Positions 8,184 to 50,278 of a stretch of DNA of 64,000 bases are shown piece after piece. The notes under the pieces were generated by a model. The model did not search any database. It was not told where the DNA came from and saw nothing but the letters and a program-made list of their open reading frames with translations. Each line of letters opens with the position of its first letter. Within the stretch, counting starts at the first letter, position 1. Source of the DNA: Halostella limicola (lineage in GTDB: Archaea; Halobacteriota; Halobacteria; Halobacteriales; Natronoarchaeaceae); NCBI RefSeq assembly GCF_003675875.1, contig NZ_RCDI01000001.1, positions 992,001-1,056,000 of the forward strand. The letters run 5' to 3'. A program made the translations under genes and the position numbers.

Positions 8184-8378
8184 CTACTCCTCGGTGGGAG
8201 ACGCGAACTCGTCGTTCCCGCAGGAACAGGTCCCGTCCGTTCCGACCGGGCGTAGTTCCCCGTTTCGAACGGTCTGTACGGGGTAGATAGTCCCGCACTC
8301 CGTGCACTGACCGAACGTCTGCGGCTCGCCGCCCGACCCGGGGTCCTCTCTGTTGCCCTTCGGTTGCTGACCCTTCAT
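8184..8378 (-). CDS. small zinc-ribbon protein (64 aa), second gene of pair
   Basis: A 64-residue protein from the ATG at 8378, too small for most gene callers. Cys25 and Cys28 (CTECG) and Cys51 and Cys53 (CSCGND) form a compact zinc ribbon of the CPxCG-related microprotein type common in haloarchaea. Its start overlaps the stop of the upstream zinc-ribbon gene by four bases (ATGA), so the two are co-translated. A related protein in the same relative position occurs at 48585-48767 (CERCG, RCG and an N/D-G-C spacing). Likely protein- or nucleic-acid-binding; no specific role can be assigned. Confidence 0.75.
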   Translation of the reverse strand: MKGQQPKGNREDPGSGGEPQTFGQCTECGTIYPVQTVRNGELRPVGTDGTCSCGNDEFASPTEE

Positions 8379-8512
8379 CCCTCCGCGTAGACGAACTCCT
8401 CGTTCTCGCACTTCGCACACCCGTTCTCGGCGAGGGGTGTTACGCGAACGTCGTCCTTCTCTCCCGGTTGCTGATTCCCGCACGCAGTACAGTGGCCCAA
8501 CACAATTTCCAT
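8375..8512 (-). CDS. small zinc-ribbon protein (45 aa), first gene of pair
   Basis: A 45-residue protein from the ATG at 8512 (MEIVLGHCTACG). Cys8/Cys11 and Cys32/Cys35 in two CxxC knuckles flank QPG and PLAENGC, features shared with the paralogue at 48780-48956. The gene opens a two-gene unit with 8184-8378, overlapping by ATGA. A TATA-like CTTATAAATG (minus strand, about 8565-8574) lies upstream of the unit. Such microproteins in Haloferax are known as small zinc-finger proteins with mostly unassigned, sometimes regulatory, roles. Confidence 0.75.
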   Translation of the reverse strand: MEIVLGHCTACGNQQPGEKDDVRVTPLAENGCAKCENEEFVYAEG

Positions 8513-8601
8513 ACCTCTGATTGGCCTTCCTGGCGCAAACCCCACACTGCTGTAATAACAACTCATTTATAAGGAAAGCGGCGACTGTCCCGAACGAGCG
8601 G

Positions 8602-9255
8602 CTACTCCTCCGCACCGAGCTCCGAGTTCTCGATCAGGTTGCGCGTCCCGCGCCGAAGCCGCGACGAGAGCGCCTGCTGAGAGATCCCGAGCGCGTCGGC
8701 GACCTCGGACATCGTCGCCGCGCGGGGCGAGTCGTAGTACCCGCAGTGGAGCGCCGTCAGCAGGGCGTCCCGCTGAGCGTCGGTCAACGGTCCCGTCGTT
8801 TCCAGCGGCGTGAGCGAGTGGATCGCCGTGACCGTTATCGGGATCTCGTGTTCGAGCGTGTACCGCTGAAAGTCGGAGACCGCGTCCTGGCTGACGCCGC
8901 GAACCTCGAACCGCCACTCCTCTTCGGTCCCCTCGGCGGTGAGCAGCGTCACGTCCGCTTCGGTGAGCCCCGCGAGGATACCCGCGTACTCGGGTACCCA
9001 CTCGCACCGCATGAGGTACTGCGTCTCGAACTCGTCGACGACTTCGATGTCGCGGACGCCCGGATGCTCCGCGAAGTGTGGCAGGATCTCGTCGACGACG
9101 ACCCCTCGCACCCAGAAGTACGGGACGACCGCCGACTCGTCGTCGCGCGGAACGACCCGCTCCAGTTCGACCGTCACGCCCGCCTCCAAGTCCGAGAAGA
9201 TGCTCCCCAGCGGGAACACGTCCGACTCGACAGTGAACTCGACCACGGTCGCCAT
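8602..9255 (-). CDS. HTH-10 (bacterio-opsin activator-like) transcriptional regulator
   Basis: A 217-residue protein from the ATG at 9255 (MATVVEFTVESD); upstream residues in the open frame were discarded. The N-terminal 150 residues resemble the beta-rich sensor-like half of the Bat/HTH-10 family. The C-terminus carries the family helix-turn-helix, beginning LTDAQRDALLTALHCGYY and continuing through EVADALGISQQALSSRLRR. Haloarchaea have many of these regulators, usually of unknown ligand. It is divergent from the HPP protein (110 bp), which may be a target. No PAS or GAF domain is present. Confidence 0.88.
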   Translation of the reverse strand: MATVVEFTVESDVFPLGSIFSDLEAGVTVELERVVPRDDESAVVPYFWVRGVVVDEILPHFAEHPGVRDIEVVDEFETQYLMRCEWVPEYAGILAGLTEADVTLLTAEGTEEEWRFEVRGVSQDAVSDFQRYTLEHEIPITVTAIHSLTPLETTGPLTDAQRDALLTALHCGYYDSPRAATMSEVADALGISQQALSSRLRRGTRNLIENSELGAEE

Positions 9256-37059: not shown

Positions 37060-37148
37060 GCGCGGCCCTCCTCGGGACGGTCCCAGTCCCATGCGAGACG
37101 CTCGCGCTCGTCGACATCGTACAGCGCGGAAGCGCGGACGAACGTCAC
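37056..37148 (-). CDS. 30-residue coupled small protein
   Basis: From the GTG at 37148 the frame encodes 30 residues (VTFVRASALYDVDERERL, then AWDWDRPEEGRA). Its GTG overlaps the stop of the zinc-finger gene upstream by four bases, and its TGA overlaps the HTH gene's ATG by four bases. Four-base overlap at both ends in the only open frame linking the two neighbours is the main evidence. Function unknown. Confidence 0.55.
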   Translation of the reverse strand: MTFVRASALYDVDERERLAWDWDRPEEGRA

Positions 37149-37366
37149 GCCGGATCACTCCCGTGACGGCCGGGGGACGTTTCCGGGTCCGGCGTCGGCA
37201 CGTCGAGGCCAGCTGCGCTCCCTTCGGTCAGGCGGACCCAGGTATCGCACTCGCTACAGCGATGGGCGCGGTCGTCGCTGTCGCCGTACACCCGCAGGAA
37301 CTGATCCGAGACGTGCGCGCCGCAGTGATTGCAGGTTGACCTATCCGTGGTCGCGACGGCGCTCAT
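37145..37366 (-). CDS. DUF7563-like zinc-finger protein (73 aa)
   Basis: A 73-residue protein from the ATG at 37366 (MSAVATTDRSTCNHCG). Cys12/Cys15 and Cys37/Cys40 (HRCSECDTWVRLTEG) form a zinc ribbon; EGSAAGLDVPTPDPE and SPGRHG match the haloarchaeal family I know as DUF7563. It is the first gene of the overlapping operon, with its promoter in the 177 bp before tRNA-Ile. Confidence 0.75.
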   Translation of the reverse strand: MSAVATTDRSTCNHCGAHVSDQFLRVYGDSDDRAHRCSECDTWVRLTEGSAAGLDVPTPDPETSPGRHGSDPA

Positions 37367-37543
37367 CACGCCGACCACCCCCGCTGGGCTACGATAAACG
37401 CGGGACTACGGTGGGGTGCGTCAGGTTTCCTCCCGAGTTGCTCAGAAACGGGTCGCTCGCGATTTTCCGCATCCCGCGAAAATTCCAGCCTGAAGGCTCG
37501 AAGCCTTGAATTCTGATCGGTCAAGAAGCGACCGATTTGAGTA

Positions 37544-45435: not shown

Positions 45436-47295
45436 TTACTCTCGGCCGTGCTTCGTGAGGCACTTCGAGAGGCCGATGAGTTCGACGGGTTCGGAGTTGT
45501 CCGGCGAGTAGACGACCATCTGGCCCTTCTCCATGTACGGCACCTTCCCCTCCAGGTTCGAGGGGATGTTCACCGAGGAGATGGCGTCCTCGTCGCCGAG
45601 GTTGAGGACGACGGTGGAGTTGATCTGCTTGAACACTGGGTCGGCGATGTCCTGCGGGTCCTGCGTGATGAGAAAGAGGCCGAGGCGCTCCTTGCGGCCC
45701 TGCTTAGCCGCGTCGGTGAACTTGCCGATCACCTTGCGCGCCTGCACGCTCTCGGCGTCGGTGAGGAAGTTGTGGGCCTCGTCCATGCCGACGACCAGCG
45801 GCGTCTCCTTGATGCGGTCGTACGTCGGTGCGTTCGACAGTTTCTGGTCGATGAGCAGGCTGGAGACGGCGAGGACGATGACCTCCGTCGCCCGCGTATC
45901 GTTGACGTGGTAGGTCGGGACGACGGTGAGGCCGCCGGGGCGGACGAGCTCCGAGACCAGGTCCGTGATGGGGCGGGCGTCCCCGTCGAACACGTCGCCG
46001 AACCCGCGGACGCGACGCTTGACGGCGTCGAACGTCGCTTCGTGTACCGTGCCCGCCTCGTGCAGTTCCTCGCGCAGCGCGGGGTCGTCGAGGTAGGAGA
46101 GAAACTGGTCGTACGTCCCCTCGTTGCCGTACTGCCGGAAGAAGCGGTCGACCAGCACGTCCAGGGCGTTGAACTGGTTGTCGTTCAGGCGGCCGCCGGC
46201 GATGAGCCAGCGGTTCGACCGCACCATCGAGAACGGGATCGTGAACTCCACCTGTTCGGCGCGGTGGTGGTCCGCGCCGTAGCTCGTCCCGTCCACGACC
46301 GGGACGAGGGCCTTCGTGTCGTCGTGCCCGCCGTGGGCGATCCCCTCGCGCTCGTAGCGCCGCCGGTCCTCGGCGGTGACGTCGGGGTTGTCGTCGTGCA
46401 TCTGCGCGTACTCGTCCTGCGGGTCGAACTGCACGACCGCGGCGCGGGCCTGCCGGCCGTCGTCCATGTCGTAGGTGCGGTCCGAGTCGAGGAACTGCCG
46501 GAGGACGTTCTTCGAGGCGTGGGTCTTCCCGGACCCCGTCCCGCCGGCGACCAGCGTGTGCCGGAAGACGAGGGGGTCGCCGTCCTCGTAGTCGTCCTTC
46601 AGGCGGTAGTCGATCGTCGGCGGCTCCGCGGCGGTCCGGACCTTCTCGCCGCCGACCGAGAGGTGCCCGAGGAAGACGCCGTCGTCCGGCATCTTCAGCC
46701 CCGTCTTGATCTCGGAGGCGTCCGTCGCCTCGCGGACGGGCGTCTCGGGTTTCGGCACGCGGTCGGTCATCCGCCGTTTCAGTTCGCCGCCGTCTTCGTA
46801 CAGGATCGCGACGGGCTCCAGCGACGCGAGGAACTTGTAGTCGGCCTCGTCGATCCCGTCCTTGCGCATCGCGCGCCGGGCGTGGATCTCGGTGGCGTCG
46901 TCGCTCGCGTACTCCTGGACGTACTCCAGCGCGGTGATGCGGCAGAACAGTTTCTCGCCGGCGGAGGCCCCGCGCCCGCCCTCGTCGGGGTAGGGCACGA
47001 GCAGGTACTTCCCGATGCGGACGTTCGGGCGGTTCTCCGCCGTGACGTACGCCCGCAGGGTGGTCTCGTCCTCCTCCTCGCCGATGCAGAGCCCCTCGGA
47101 GACGGCGACCGTCCCGATGCCCCGGTCCTCGCCGGCGACGGTCGCGTCGACCTCCTCGAACGCGCTCGCGTCGCCATCCGCGCTCGCGCCCGCGTCGCCG
47201 TCCGCGGACGCCCCGTTCCCCGTCACGCCGCCGGAGGACGACTCCTCGGCGTCGTCGTCGGGGTCGTACTCGGTGTAATCTCCCAGGTCGGCCAT
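45436..47295 (-). CDS. herA: HerA-type bipolar DNA helicase/translocase
   Basis: A 619-residue protein from the ATG at 47295. An acidic, low-complexity N-terminus (about 1-60) precedes an N-terminal HAS-barrel-like region. The FtsK/HerA ATPase core has AGGTGSGKTHASKN (Walker A, about 247-260), VVGMDEAHNF (Walker B) and a C-terminal LFLITQDPQDIADPV. HerA forms a hexameric translocase that works with NurA in DNA-end resection. nurA is 1.7 kb upstream on the same strand, with other genes between. Confidence 0.9.
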   Translation of the reverse strand: MADLGDYTEYDPDDDAEESSSGGVTGNGASADGDAGASADGDASAFEEVDATVAGEDRGIGTVAVSEGLCIGEEEDETTLRAYVTAENRPNVRIGKYLLVPYPDEGGRGASAGEKLFCRITALEYVQEYASDDATEIHARRAMRKDGIDEADYKFLASLEPVAILYEDGGELKRRMTDRVPKPETPVREATDASEIKTGLKMPDDGVFLGHLSVGGEKVRTAAEPPTIDYRLKDDYEDGDPLVFRHTLVAGGTGSGKTHASKNVLRQFLDSDRTYDMDDGRQARAAVVQFDPQDEYAQMHDDNPDVTAEDRRRYEREGIAHGGHDDTKALVPVVDGTSYGADHHRAEQVEFTIPFSMVRSNRWLIAGGRLNDNQFNALDVLVDRFFRQYGNEGTYDQFLSYLDDPALREELHEAGTVHEATFDAVKRRVRGFGDVFDGDARPITDLVSELVRPGGLTVVPTYHVNDTRATEVIVLAVSSLLIDQKLSNAPTYDRIKETPLVVGMDEAHNFLTDAESVQARKVIGKFTDAAKQGRKERLGLFLITQDPQDIADPVFKQINSTVVLNLGDEDAISSVNIPSNLEGKVPYMEKGQMVVYSPDNSEPVELIGLSKCLTKHGRE

Positions 47296-47385
47296 ACGAC
47301 CGACATGCGAACCCTCTGTTAAAACCTTTCTCACGTCCGTCGCAGCACCCGTGGCCTTATTCCCTCTCCGACCTTACTGCGGGTT

Positions 47386-47730
47386 ATGTTACTAGTTCGC
47401 GGCAGCGCCGGCGGCACCGAGCTGACCGGCACCGTGTACGAGCGGGGGGAGCGTGCCCCGTCGTTCAAGGGCGCGCCCGACGAGGACGCCCCGTACGTCT
47501 GGGTCTGCGACGAGTTCTACGAGGTCGAAAGCGGCGGCACCACGCAGGAGGTCGGCGGCCGCGAGCTGCGGATCGCCTTCGAGTCGCCGATGCCTCGCGG
47601 GTTCGACACCCGCGAGCAGGCCCTGGAGGCGGCGAAAGACCACGTCCGCACGCAGTTCGCCCGCATCGGCGTCGACGGCGAGGACGTCGAGATAGAGGTC
47701 CAGAAGGAAGAGCCCGGCGCCGAAGTGTAG
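47386..47730 (+). CDS. haloarchaeal DUF7113-like protein
   Basis: A 114-residue protein starting MLLVRGSAGGTELTGT. The segment PYVWVCDEFYEVESGG and the helix EQALEAAKDHVRTQFARIG are like those of the haloarchaeal DUF7113 family as I recall it. It is divergent from herA (about 90 bp) and convergent with the second TrmB gene. Function unknown. Confidence 0.55.
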   Translation: MLLVRGSAGGTELTGTVYERGERAPSFKGAPDEDAPYVWVCDEFYEVESGGTTQEVGGRELRIAFESPMPRGFDTREQALEAAKDHVRTQFARIGVDGEDVEIEVQKEEPGAEV

Positions 47731-47745
47731 CGTCGGCGGTCGGTC

Positions 47746-48534
47746 TCACTCCTCGAAGACGCTGTCAGGTAGCCGGTCGGCGAGCAGTTCGCGCGTCCAC
47801 ACGGCGAAGCCGTGGTCGTTCCCGTACGTCCACACCGCGAGTTCCCGCGTCACGTCGGGCAGGCCGCTCTCCTCGACGCCCGCCGCGACGACCGACTGGC
47901 GGTCCACCATGAGCAACTGCGCGGGCCACTCGCCGTACACGTCCTCAGTCTCCCGGAGCCCCTCCGAGACCACGACGGTCGCGTCGGGCACGGCGTCCTC
48001 GAACCGCTCCCGAAGCCCCTCGTCGGGGACCTCGACGACGACCGCCGCGCCCCGGTCGGCGGCCGCCGCCAGTTCGTCGAGGATCCGGTCGTCGATCACC
48101 GACTCCGCGGCGACGAGGTGATGCACCGCGGACTCGGCGTCGCCGAGGAGCGCGACGACCCGGTCGGTGACGTGGTCGGCCTGCGCGATGGCCCACATCC
48201 CCTCGTCGTCGTCGGAATCGGGCTCCTCGACTTGTTTGAGCGCGTTCTCCGCCGCCTCGATCCGGGAGTCGTAGTCCTCCTGGAGGCGTCGGAACGCCAC
48301 CTCGGTCGGGACGGCCTTGTACTCGCGGGGTTCGGAGTGCTGGACGTCGACGAGGCCTCGCTCGTCCAGTCGTTCGACGGTGTCGTACACCCGGGACCGC
48401 GGCACCTCCGCGACCTGGCTGATCTCCTTCGCGGTCCCCGTCGTCATCCGCGCGAGGGCGACGAAACACCGCGCCTCGTACTCAGTCAGGCCCAGCTCCT
48501 GCAGCGCCGCCGTCGCCTCCTCCACGTTGCCCAT
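47746..48534 (-). CDS. TrmB-family transcriptional regulator (second)
   Basis: A 262-residue protein from the ATG at 48534 (MGNVEEATAALQELGLTEY). N-terminal winged helix (TEYEARCFVALARMTTGT, EVPRSRVYDTVERLDERG) and a C-terminal domain with VVEVPDEGLRERF and LLMVDRQSVVAAG. It lies between herA and the zinc-ribbon pair, all on the minus strand. Confidence 0.85.
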   Translation of the reverse strand: MGNVEEATAALQELGLTEYEARCFVALARMTTGTAKEISQVAEVPRSRVYDTVERLDERGLVDVQHSEPREYKAVPTEVAFRRLQEDYDSRIEAAENALKQVEEPDSDDDEGMWAIAQADHVTDRVVALLGDAESAVHHLVAAESVIDDRILDELAAAADRGAAVVVEVPDEGLRERFEDAVPDATVVVSEGLRETEDVYGEWPAQLLMVDRQSVVAAGVEESGLPDVTRELAVWTYGNDHGFAVWTRELLADRLPDSVFEE

Positions 48535-48584
48535 ATCCTCACCTAGGCACGTTGTCGACCAAGTACGTCGGCCTCGTCCGACCG

Positions 48585-48767
48585 TCACTCGGCCGTCGGC
48601 TCGCGCGCGCCGTCACCGACGTCCCTCGCGACGAACGACGACGCTCCGCACCGACAGCCGTTCCGGCCGATCACCCGGACCGTTCCGTCCGGCCACTCCC
48701 TCCCGGCGTAGGCCGCGCCGCAGCGCTCGCACTCGGCGACGACTCTACGGGGCTCGTCCCCAGACAC
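48585..48767 (-). CDS. small zinc-ribbon protein (60 aa), second gene of pair 2
   Basis: A 60-residue protein with Cys13/Cys16 (CERCG) and Cys38/Cys40 (CRCGAS). Gly-rich spacers and RVIGRNGCRCG parallel the TECG...TDGTCSCG of 8184-8378. It follows the upstream zinc-ribbon gene after 12 bp. Evidently a paralogue of the pair at 8.2-8.5 kb. Confidence 0.7.
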   Translation of the reverse strand: MSGDEPRRVVAECERCGAAYAGREWPDGTVRVIGRNGCRCGASSFVARDVGDGAREPTAE

Positions 48768-48779
48768 GAGAAAACGGGA

Positions 48780-48956
48780 TCAGGCGAGGATCCGGTGCGC
48801 CGACGGGCGCACTCGCTCCTGTTCGTCTTCCGCGACGTCGAAGGCGCGGCTACCGCACTTGCAGCAGCCGCTCTCGGCGAGGGGTTCGACCGCGTCGCCG
48901 TCGCGTACGCCCGGTTGGCAGTGCCCGCAGTTGACGCATTCTCCCATTACGACCAT
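48780..48956 (-). CDS. small zinc-ribbon protein (58 aa), first gene of pair 2
   Basis: A 58-residue protein from the ATG at 48956 (MVVMGECVNCGHCQPG); an ATG at 48947 is an alternative. Cys7/Cys10 with Cys13, then Cys31/Cys32/Cys34 (GCCKCG), with QPG and PLAESGC spaced as in 8375-8512 (QPG, PLAENGC). The C-terminus is longer and charged. Too short for routine calling; the clear match to the other pair supports it. Confidence 0.68.
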   Translation of the reverse strand: MVVMGECVNCGHCQPGVRDGDAVEPLAESGCCKCGSRAFDVAEDEQERVRPSAHRILA

Positions 48957-49039
48957 ACCTTCCCTACGCGATACCCCTTTTAACGTCTATCGTGAGTCCC
49001 GACGGGGTTTACGGGCTGTTTCTCCGATCGAAACAACAC

Positions 49040-50278
49040 CTACTCGTCCTCCCAGCGGACGTCGTCGTACGTCCGCAGCTCCTCGGAGTCGAGCCGACGC
49101 TCGAACGTCCGGCGGAGCGACCGCTTCTCCTCCCGGCTGATCCGGGCCAGCGCGTCGGCCTTGTGGACGGCGGCAGGCGGGCCCCGCTCCGCGGCGATCT
49201 CCGCGAGGACCTGCCGTTCGAGGCGCTCCCGGGTCTCGTCGTCGCCGGCGAACGCGTACGGGGCCTCGACCTTGTACAGCACGTCCTCCCGCGGGTCGTA
49301 GACGACGAAGAACGTCACCTCGTACGCCCCCGGGTCCATCTCGCGGTCGATGCCGAGCGCGTCGCCGTCCGCGGCGAGCGTCCGGTCGGAACCGCCCCGC
49401 GAAACGAACCAGTTCGTGAACGTCAGCTGGTCGGTGCGCCGGTCGCCCCCGTCGCGCTCGCGTTCCAGCAGGCGAGTGAACAGCGCGGTGTCGTCGACCC
49501 ACGGCGCGGGAACGCCCTTCTCGCTCACGACCCTGGTGATCAGCTTCGCCGAGGGGTTCTTCACGAAGCCGATAAGCGGCGTCCCCTCGTCGACGAACCG
49601 CTCGACGAGGCGGACGTAGTTCTCGACGATGGCGCGGGGCTTCGCGTCGTGGGTCAGCTCCCGGAGCTCCGCGTCGCGGTCCTGCCAGTTCAGCAGCTCC
49701 TTCGGATACAGTGGCCCGTCCAGCACGAGCAGGTCAGACACCGCGTCGGCGTGTTCCAGTGCGTGGCTGCTCTCCGCGAGGTACAGCGCCAGCGCGTGGA
49801 CGACGCCCTCCGTGAACCGGCTCACCCGGGGGGCCTGCAGGACGCGCCGGCGGCTGTACCCCTCGTCGTAGCGTACCCAGTCCTCGGGCAACCGGACGGT
49901 GACGTCGCTGGCGTGGACCGTCGCTACGAGGCTGCGCGAGCGGTGCAGTTCGAGGTCCGAGGGACACCCGCTCATCGCGGCCTGCGCGACGTCCAGCACG
50001 AGGCCGTTCTTGAACGTGGTCGGGTTGATCGTCCCGGAGTCGAGGCCGTGCGTGGTGGGAAACGGCGGGTCCTGCAGCGCCGCGGCCTCCACGTCGACGC
50101 AGCGCCGCCGCAGGTCGCCCACGGGCTCTATCACCCGCCGGCCGTCGTCGACCAGCGGGTCGAGGTAGTTCTCCCAGACGTCGGTCGCGAGGTCCCGGTG
50201 GTCGTCGTCGTCGACGTCCTCGCTGATCTTGCGGGCGAGTTCCGCGATGCCGTCGAAGTGCACCGGGTCGAGTGTCAT
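49040..50278 (-). CDS. nurA: NurA-type 5'-3' nuclease
   Basis: A 412-residue protein. THGLDSGTINP with Asp80 is the NurA active-site motif; a second acidic site is expected in LLVLDGPLYPKEL. NurA digests 5' ends and works with HerA to produce 3' single strands for recombination. The two genes share the strand but are separated by a TrmB regulator and the zinc-ribbon pair, whereas in many archaea they are adjacent. Confidence 0.88.
   Translation of the reverse strand: MTLDPVHFDGIAELARKISEDVDDDDHRDLATDVWENYLDPLVDDGRRVIEPVGDLRRRCVDVEAAALQDPPFPTTHGLDSGTINPTTFKNGLVLDVAQAAMSGCPSDLELHRSRSLVATVHASDVTVRLPEDWVRYDEGYSRRRVLQAPRVSRFTEGVVHALALYLAESSHALEHADAVSDLLVLDGPLYPKELLNWQDRDAELRELTHDAKPRAIVENYVRLVERFVDEGTPLIGFVKNPSAKLITRVVSEKGVPAPWVDDTALFTRLLERERDGGDRRTDQLTFTNWFVSRGGSDRTLAADGDALGIDREMDPGAYEVTFFVVYDPREDVLYKVEAPYAFAGDDETRERLERQVLAEIAAERGPPAAVHKADALARISREEKRSLRRTFERRLDSEELRTYDDVRWEDE

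Follow-up and report, generated by a model that had tools for sequence, protein, structure and literature searches.

The question raised by this locus is why two pairs of very small, cysteine-rich proteins are encoded side by side within a single stretch of haloarchaeal DNA (the window, 64,000 nucleotides of the Halostella limicola genome). A preliminary description had proposed that the pairs, here called A1-B1 and A2-B2 (Table 1), are duplicates of a conserved two-gene module whose products act together, for example as a heterodimer. Its open reading frames (ORFs), lengths, strand and motifs were all confirmed when we checked the ORFs, as were the position of pair 2, with nurA on one side and a TrmB gene on the other, and the 4-bp ATGA stop/start overlap of pair 1. 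The end of A1 and the start of B1 lie inside ...GAGGGATGAAGG..., and the stretch common to the two genes, which contains the overlap, is GGATGAAGG; A2 and B2 are separated by 12 bp. All four products are acidic, with pI values of 4.3 (A1), 4.5 (B1), 4.9 (A2) and 5.4 (B2). BLASTP aligned A1 with A2 over 42 aa at 50% identity (E = 1e-13) and B1 with B2 over 47 aa at 34% identity (E = 2e-7).

Table 1. Genes and features of the two microprotein loci in the window
Feature	Position	Strand	Description	Evidence
B1	8184..8378	-	64-aa zinc-ribbon microprotein, GGEPQTFGQCTECG...GTCSCGNDEF	ORF, overlap with A1
A1	8375..8512	-	45-aa zinc-ribbon microprotein, CTACG-NQQPG...PLAENGCAKC	ORF
TATA-like box TTATAAAT	8565..8572	-	putative; ~50 bp upstream of A1, kept in G004	upstream alignment
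BAT/HTH_10 (bacterio-opsin-activator-type) regulator	8602..9255	-	first gene of module 1	Pfam PF04967 4.2e-17, PF15915 5.6e-13
DUF7113 gene	47386..47730	+	other flank of module 2 insertion site	Pfam DUF7113 6.2e-58
TrmB-type regulator	47746..48534	-	after A2-B2; likely start 48534	Pfam TrmB 5.9e-22
B2	48585..48767	-	60-aa zinc-ribbon microprotein, GTG start	ribbon clade differs from that of B1
A2	48780..48956	-	58-aa zinc-ribbon microprotein	ORF, BLASTP to A1, G004 orthologue at same site
nurA	49040..50278	-	flanks module 2 insertion site	Pfam NurA

A scan of the window for the motif C-x2-CG...C-x(1,2)-C...F in ORFs of up to 90 aa recovered A1, A2 and B2, with a mean of 0.0 in the 60 fifth-order Markov shuffles used as a control; B1 was missing because its in-frame ORF extends to 143 aa and was filtered out. 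Chance is not the expected source of this Cys motif in short ORFs of such composition. A further small ORF on the minus strand (37145-37378, 77 aa) carries two CxxC motifs (CNHCG ... CSECD) and is unrelated to A and B by the scan motif.

Each of the four proteins has a single zinc ribbon, and no Pfam or NCBIfam family scored above its curated cut-off against A1, B1, A2 or B2. In an alignment of 36 ribbons, Cys25, Cys28 and Cys53 (B1 numbering) never vary, and the third ligand sits one column apart in CxC-type and CxxC-type members; in A1 all four Cys are intact both in the present genome (G000) and in G004, the MAG QS_9_68_17 of a congener. The AlphaFold2 (AF2) model of A1 has a mean pLDDT of 90.4 and folds as a ribbon of three strands, and that of B1 is a three-stranded ribbon with a pLDDT of ~90 over residues 21-60. 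The alignment and the models together display the four Cys ligands, two knuckles and beta ribbon of a zinc ribbon, and A and B are therefore predicted to bind zinc. Foldseek returned no match at E <= 0.001 for the model of either A1 or B1, and fold homology was rejected on this ground; the top A1 matches, all weaker than that threshold, were mostly MCM zinc domains, and the profile similarity to 1qyp (E = 0.005) is weak and covers the knuckle only. A and B thus resemble the zinc ribbons of TFIIS/RPB9 and of the MCM N terminus in having a Cys4 beta ribbon and a knuckle-level profile similarity, but the similarity stops at one knuckle and whole-domain homology was not found.

The CPxCG class, as defined by Tarasov et al. 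(2008), comprises proteins of <100 aa with two Cys/His patterns lying 7-40 residues apart, each with 2-3 residues between ligands and at least one of them CPxCG-like. A1 and A2 (CxxCG ... CxxC) belong to this class by definition, whereas B1 and B2, whose first pattern CxxCG satisfies the rule, fall outside it through their second pattern, CxC, with one residue between ligands. The C(P)XCG microproteins of Haloferax volcanii (e.g., HVO_0758 and HVO_2753), most of which bind zinc (PMC11241148), are likewise haloarchaeal, shorter than 70 aa and equipped with paired Cys motifs; the CxC of the B type differs in lying outside the published CPxCG pattern. An A/B profile searched against the PDB gave no match to these Haloferax proteins at E <= 1, and the excerpts of the C(P)XCG microprotein literature covered here describe no regulator-linked ribbon pair.

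Phylogenetic analysis gave a divided answer on the proposed duplication. All A members group in a single clade confined to the genus (bootstrap/SH-aLRT 99/93), in which A1 and A2 are sister paralogues, and B1, B3, B4 and B5 fall in a widespread GGEP clade, with B2 in another large clade. A tree forcing B1 and B2 into one group was rejected by the AU test with p = 0.0116, a value that is indicative only, as the ribbon tree is coarse (~53 columns) and the constrained group was picked after inspection of the tree. Duplication therefore describes A1 and A2 and does not describe B1 and B2, and simple duplication of the pair was rejected; with a single A clade and two B clades, the same kind of A has been joined with two kinds of B in identical order. 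These data bear on the alternative that A and B are just neighbouring paralogues, generated by tandem duplication in a large haloarchaeal ribbon family and devoid of joint function. The common fold and motif of A and B, their ~30% identity in the alignment, the expansion of the family and the fast evolution of its genes would all be explained in this way, but the association of A1 with a GGEP-clade B and of A2 with a B of the other clade implies that the pairing was (re-)established more than once, and in G004 coupling is retained and the genes have decayed jointly, so we regard this alternative as unlikely.

Every paired locus of the genome has a gene for a DNA-binding regulator. The gene order is HTH_10/BAT-A1-B1 at the first locus, A2-B2-TrmB at the second and A4-TrmB2-B3 at a third (L017), where A4 is divergent from TrmB2-B3; the TrmB of module 2 and that between A4 and B3 are 46% identical. 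The HTH_10/BAT gene directly before pair 1 was absent from the preliminary description, and the regulator, earlier treated only as a neighbour, is part of the best-supported unit along with the two microprotein genes. Given the separate TATA-like box before pair 1, co-transcription with the HTH_10 gene is not assured. The explanation that we prefer, and to which we assign an even chance, is that A and B are regulator-associated accessory microproteins (co-regulators) of the adjoining DNA-binding regulator. The TrmB of module 2 is also weakly matched in PADLOC by Csa3/CARF regulators through their HTH part (E 3e-5), a similarity that is probably due only to the shared winged helix.

The whole genome encodes four A and five B paralogues. 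Within the family, three of nine genomes (G000, G002 and G004) have both A and B and the remaining six have neither (Fisher exact p = 0.012), and in G004 both pairs lie at the same loci. The preliminary description had staked its module on synteny and co-occurrence elsewhere; both were found, and the module is accordingly real. Its reach is narrower than had been suggested, however. Among the matches listed, which are weighted to the best-scoring ones, strong A matches occur in 3 of the 392 genomes of the order, all of the same genus, whereas B-like ribbons occur in at least 133, with up to 15 per genome and in many cases without A. As strong A matches stop at the genus boundary and B stands alone in many genomes, a general haloarchaeal A-B pair is unsupported, and an A-B pair kept across the whole order was rejected; the claim of a conserved two-gene module stands within the one genus. 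A scan of contigs with the single A2 protein gave no relatives. Within the genus, A3, B4 and B5 of G000 as well as the A and B of G002 are solitary and have no obvious regulator. A3 (L018:2840-3993; G000:C2 ~1092.3-1093.5 kb) comes immediately behind a gene whose product has a VLRF1/baeRF-type release-factor domain, a context of translation quality control and not of a regulator.

The three modules have fared differently in G004. HTH_10-A1-B1 is intact there, with A and B coupled as TAATG and preceded by an HTH_10 orthologue that is 81% identical. At the nurA locus the place of A2' and B2', with nurA on one side and DUF7113 on the other, is unchanged, and the TrmB gene is absent; A2' has lost one Cys and its stop, B2' has a short deletion, and the two share one open frame. 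We rejected a Rosetta-stone fusion of A2' and B2', since the absence of one Cys, of a short piece of B2' and of TrmB is what decay would leave behind. The third locus is also present (L092), with A4' and B3' each lacking two of four Cys, one per knuckle, and TrmB' lacking its N terminus; this module has decayed as a unit. As the HTH_10 module is intact in the same genome, the joint decay does not reflect damage to the sequence at large, although errors in the MAG may still play a part. The ribbon genes have dN values of 0.15-0.25, compared to 0.02-0.03 for nurA and DUF7113, and dN/dS values of 0.25-0.63; the dN/dS of 0.47-0.62 for A1/B1 indicates weak constraint.

Do A and B then serve each other, and not the regulator? 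An obligate A-B heterodimer with a main function independent of the regulators would fit the overlapping or near-adjacent genes in identical order at two loci in two genomes, the pairing of A with two different B clades in unchanged order, and the single open frame and joint decay of A and B in G004. Against it, A3, B4 and B5 as well as the A and B of G002 stand without a partner, B-type ribbons are common in genomes that lack A, and the fused G004 frame, having lost a Cys, looks like decay and not like a working fusion. We consider this obligate form rather improbable. An A-B heterodimer as such is possible, and the evidence fits it and two ribbons that each bind the regulator equally well.

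In the outgroup genera (G005-G008) nurA and DUF7113 are direct neighbours with no ribbons between them, and thus module 2 was inserted between these two genes in the present genus. This insertion, the patchy presence limited to one genus and the high dN relative to the neighbours could be read as signs of mobile or conflict-type cargo, such as a toxin-antitoxin or anti-virus system, inserting beside other genes. Yet the PADLOC search gave no match to the ribbons, viral and phage homologues were not found, and the loci display no hallmarks of mobile elements and have regulators as companions, which makes this reading highly improbable. An anti-phage system was rejected on the PADLOC result, and a viral or plasmid origin because viral or phage homologues and A matches on plasmids both numbered zero; B-like ribbons on plasmids are haloarchaeal relatives. 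Regarding the flanks of module 2, nurA, DUF7113 and a herA-like gene (window 45436-50278) stay neighbours in the outgroup genera, one of which is covered for nurA-DUF7113 only. DUF7113 shares 96% identity with its G004 counterpart, and a functional link to NurA-HerA is conceivable.

The association between B-type ribbons and HTH_10 genes reaches beyond the genus and spans several families. We sampled 102 ribbon loci outside the genus, and as three had been chosen for an already-visible HTH_10 gene, the other 99 were counted: in ~20 of these the next gene upstream is a same-strand HTH_10 gene, in most cases with 111-131 bp between domain matches and ~80 bp between genes. BAT/HTH_10 domains were found in 14-15 of 59 upstream neighbours of ribbons, compared to none in the families listed for 59 downstream neighbours, and the HTH_10-neighbour state has changed ~10 times on the ribbon tree. 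For the majority of B-type ribbons elsewhere, the adjoining genes include no HTH_10. The closest homologues of the HTH_10 gene in the window mostly lack a ribbon, and the association is thus common only when viewed from the ribbons. TrmB was not found near the sampled ribbons outside the genus, and as the next-closest TrmB genes of the family also lack ribbons, TrmB as a general partner was rejected; the TrmB-ribbon link occurs only in this genus. A second Cys-rich microprotein directly adjoins the ribbon in 2 of 108 cases outside the genus. In one (G094), the two-microprotein operon after HTH_10 consists of a different Cys-rich microprotein and, next, a B ribbon, with an 8-bp overlap, and in the other (G365) the counterparts of both microproteins are fused in one frame. 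The pairs in the window are thus genus-level two-microprotein modules attached to regulators, within a wider haloarchaeal HTH_10-ribbon association.

The closest known arrangement is that of Bat, Brz and Brb in Halobacterium salinarum, the module known to turn on bacteriorhodopsin, all three being needed for or affecting bop transcription according to two reports (PMC2253796, PMC3184054), which also place a zinc-finger gene and a gene for a small basic protein at or near the bat homologues boa4 and boa2 (boa4/OE2447F/bp4 and boa2/OE3131F/bp2). Both arrangements combine a Bat-type HTH_10 regulator, a zinc-finger microprotein and, close by, a second overlapping or co-transcribed microprotein, and the adjacency of a BAT/HTH_10 regulator to zinc-finger microprotein genes, seen in module 1, recurs in other families. 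The differences are that the second microprotein here is an acidic zinc ribbon, whereas Brb is a small basic protein (pI 11.4), that the ribbons follow the regulator and do not precede it, that Brz has a C-terminal Cys/His pattern with His-52 where B has CxCG, and that TrmB can stand in for the HTH_10 regulator. By this comparison the window modules are distinct from Bat-Brz-Brb, though arranged to work likewise.

If A and B are co-regulators, the BAT/HTH_10 protein (8.2-9.3 kb) or the TrmB-type proteins (47.7-49 kb and the third locus) would bind target promoters, and the A and B ribbons would be made in step through translational coupling. Once made, the ribbons would attach to the regulator, to one another or to the transcription machinery and tune the activity of the regulator, in the manner of Brz and Brb with Bat; physical contact of the ribbons with the regulator and with each other, and the direction of the effect, are what we infer from the arrangement. 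This reading is favoured by the regulator at every paired locus, the upstream HTH_10 genes outside the genus, the joint decay in G004, the G094 and G365 arrangements and the Halobacterium parallel; the solitary A3, B4, B5 and G002 genes, the many ribbons and HTH_10 genes that lack each other, the restriction of the TrmB link to one genus, the weak constraint on A1/B1 and the separate TATA-like box of pair 1 speak against it. It is tempting to speculate that interchangeable ribbon pairs plugging into HTH_10 or TrmB are a general mode of haloarchaeal control, of which Bat-Brz-Brb is one case, a generalization that we put forward as doubtful. The recurrent HTH_10 regulator directly upstream also sets the classic but little understood Bat-Brz-Brb system among a broader group of its kind. 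Dozens of zinc-finger microproteins occur in haloarchaea and, to our knowledge, their partners have yet to be named; for many of them this regulator is a testable candidate.

Such genes are easily overlooked as a class, since those beside HTH_10 on the public plasmids checked are unannotated. In two public haloarchaeal plasmid records, L199 (NZ_CP149788.1) and L200 (NZ_CP100357.1), an unannotated ribbon gene at ~2501-2680 directly follows a gene with an HTH or bacterio-opsin-activator domain. At three further loci (L078, L084 and L089), a small winged-helix (DUF7343-like) gene precedes, on the same strand, a highly conserved MAHKDDVTR-type ribbon of family f7, and the two may be a further pairing of regulator and ribbon.
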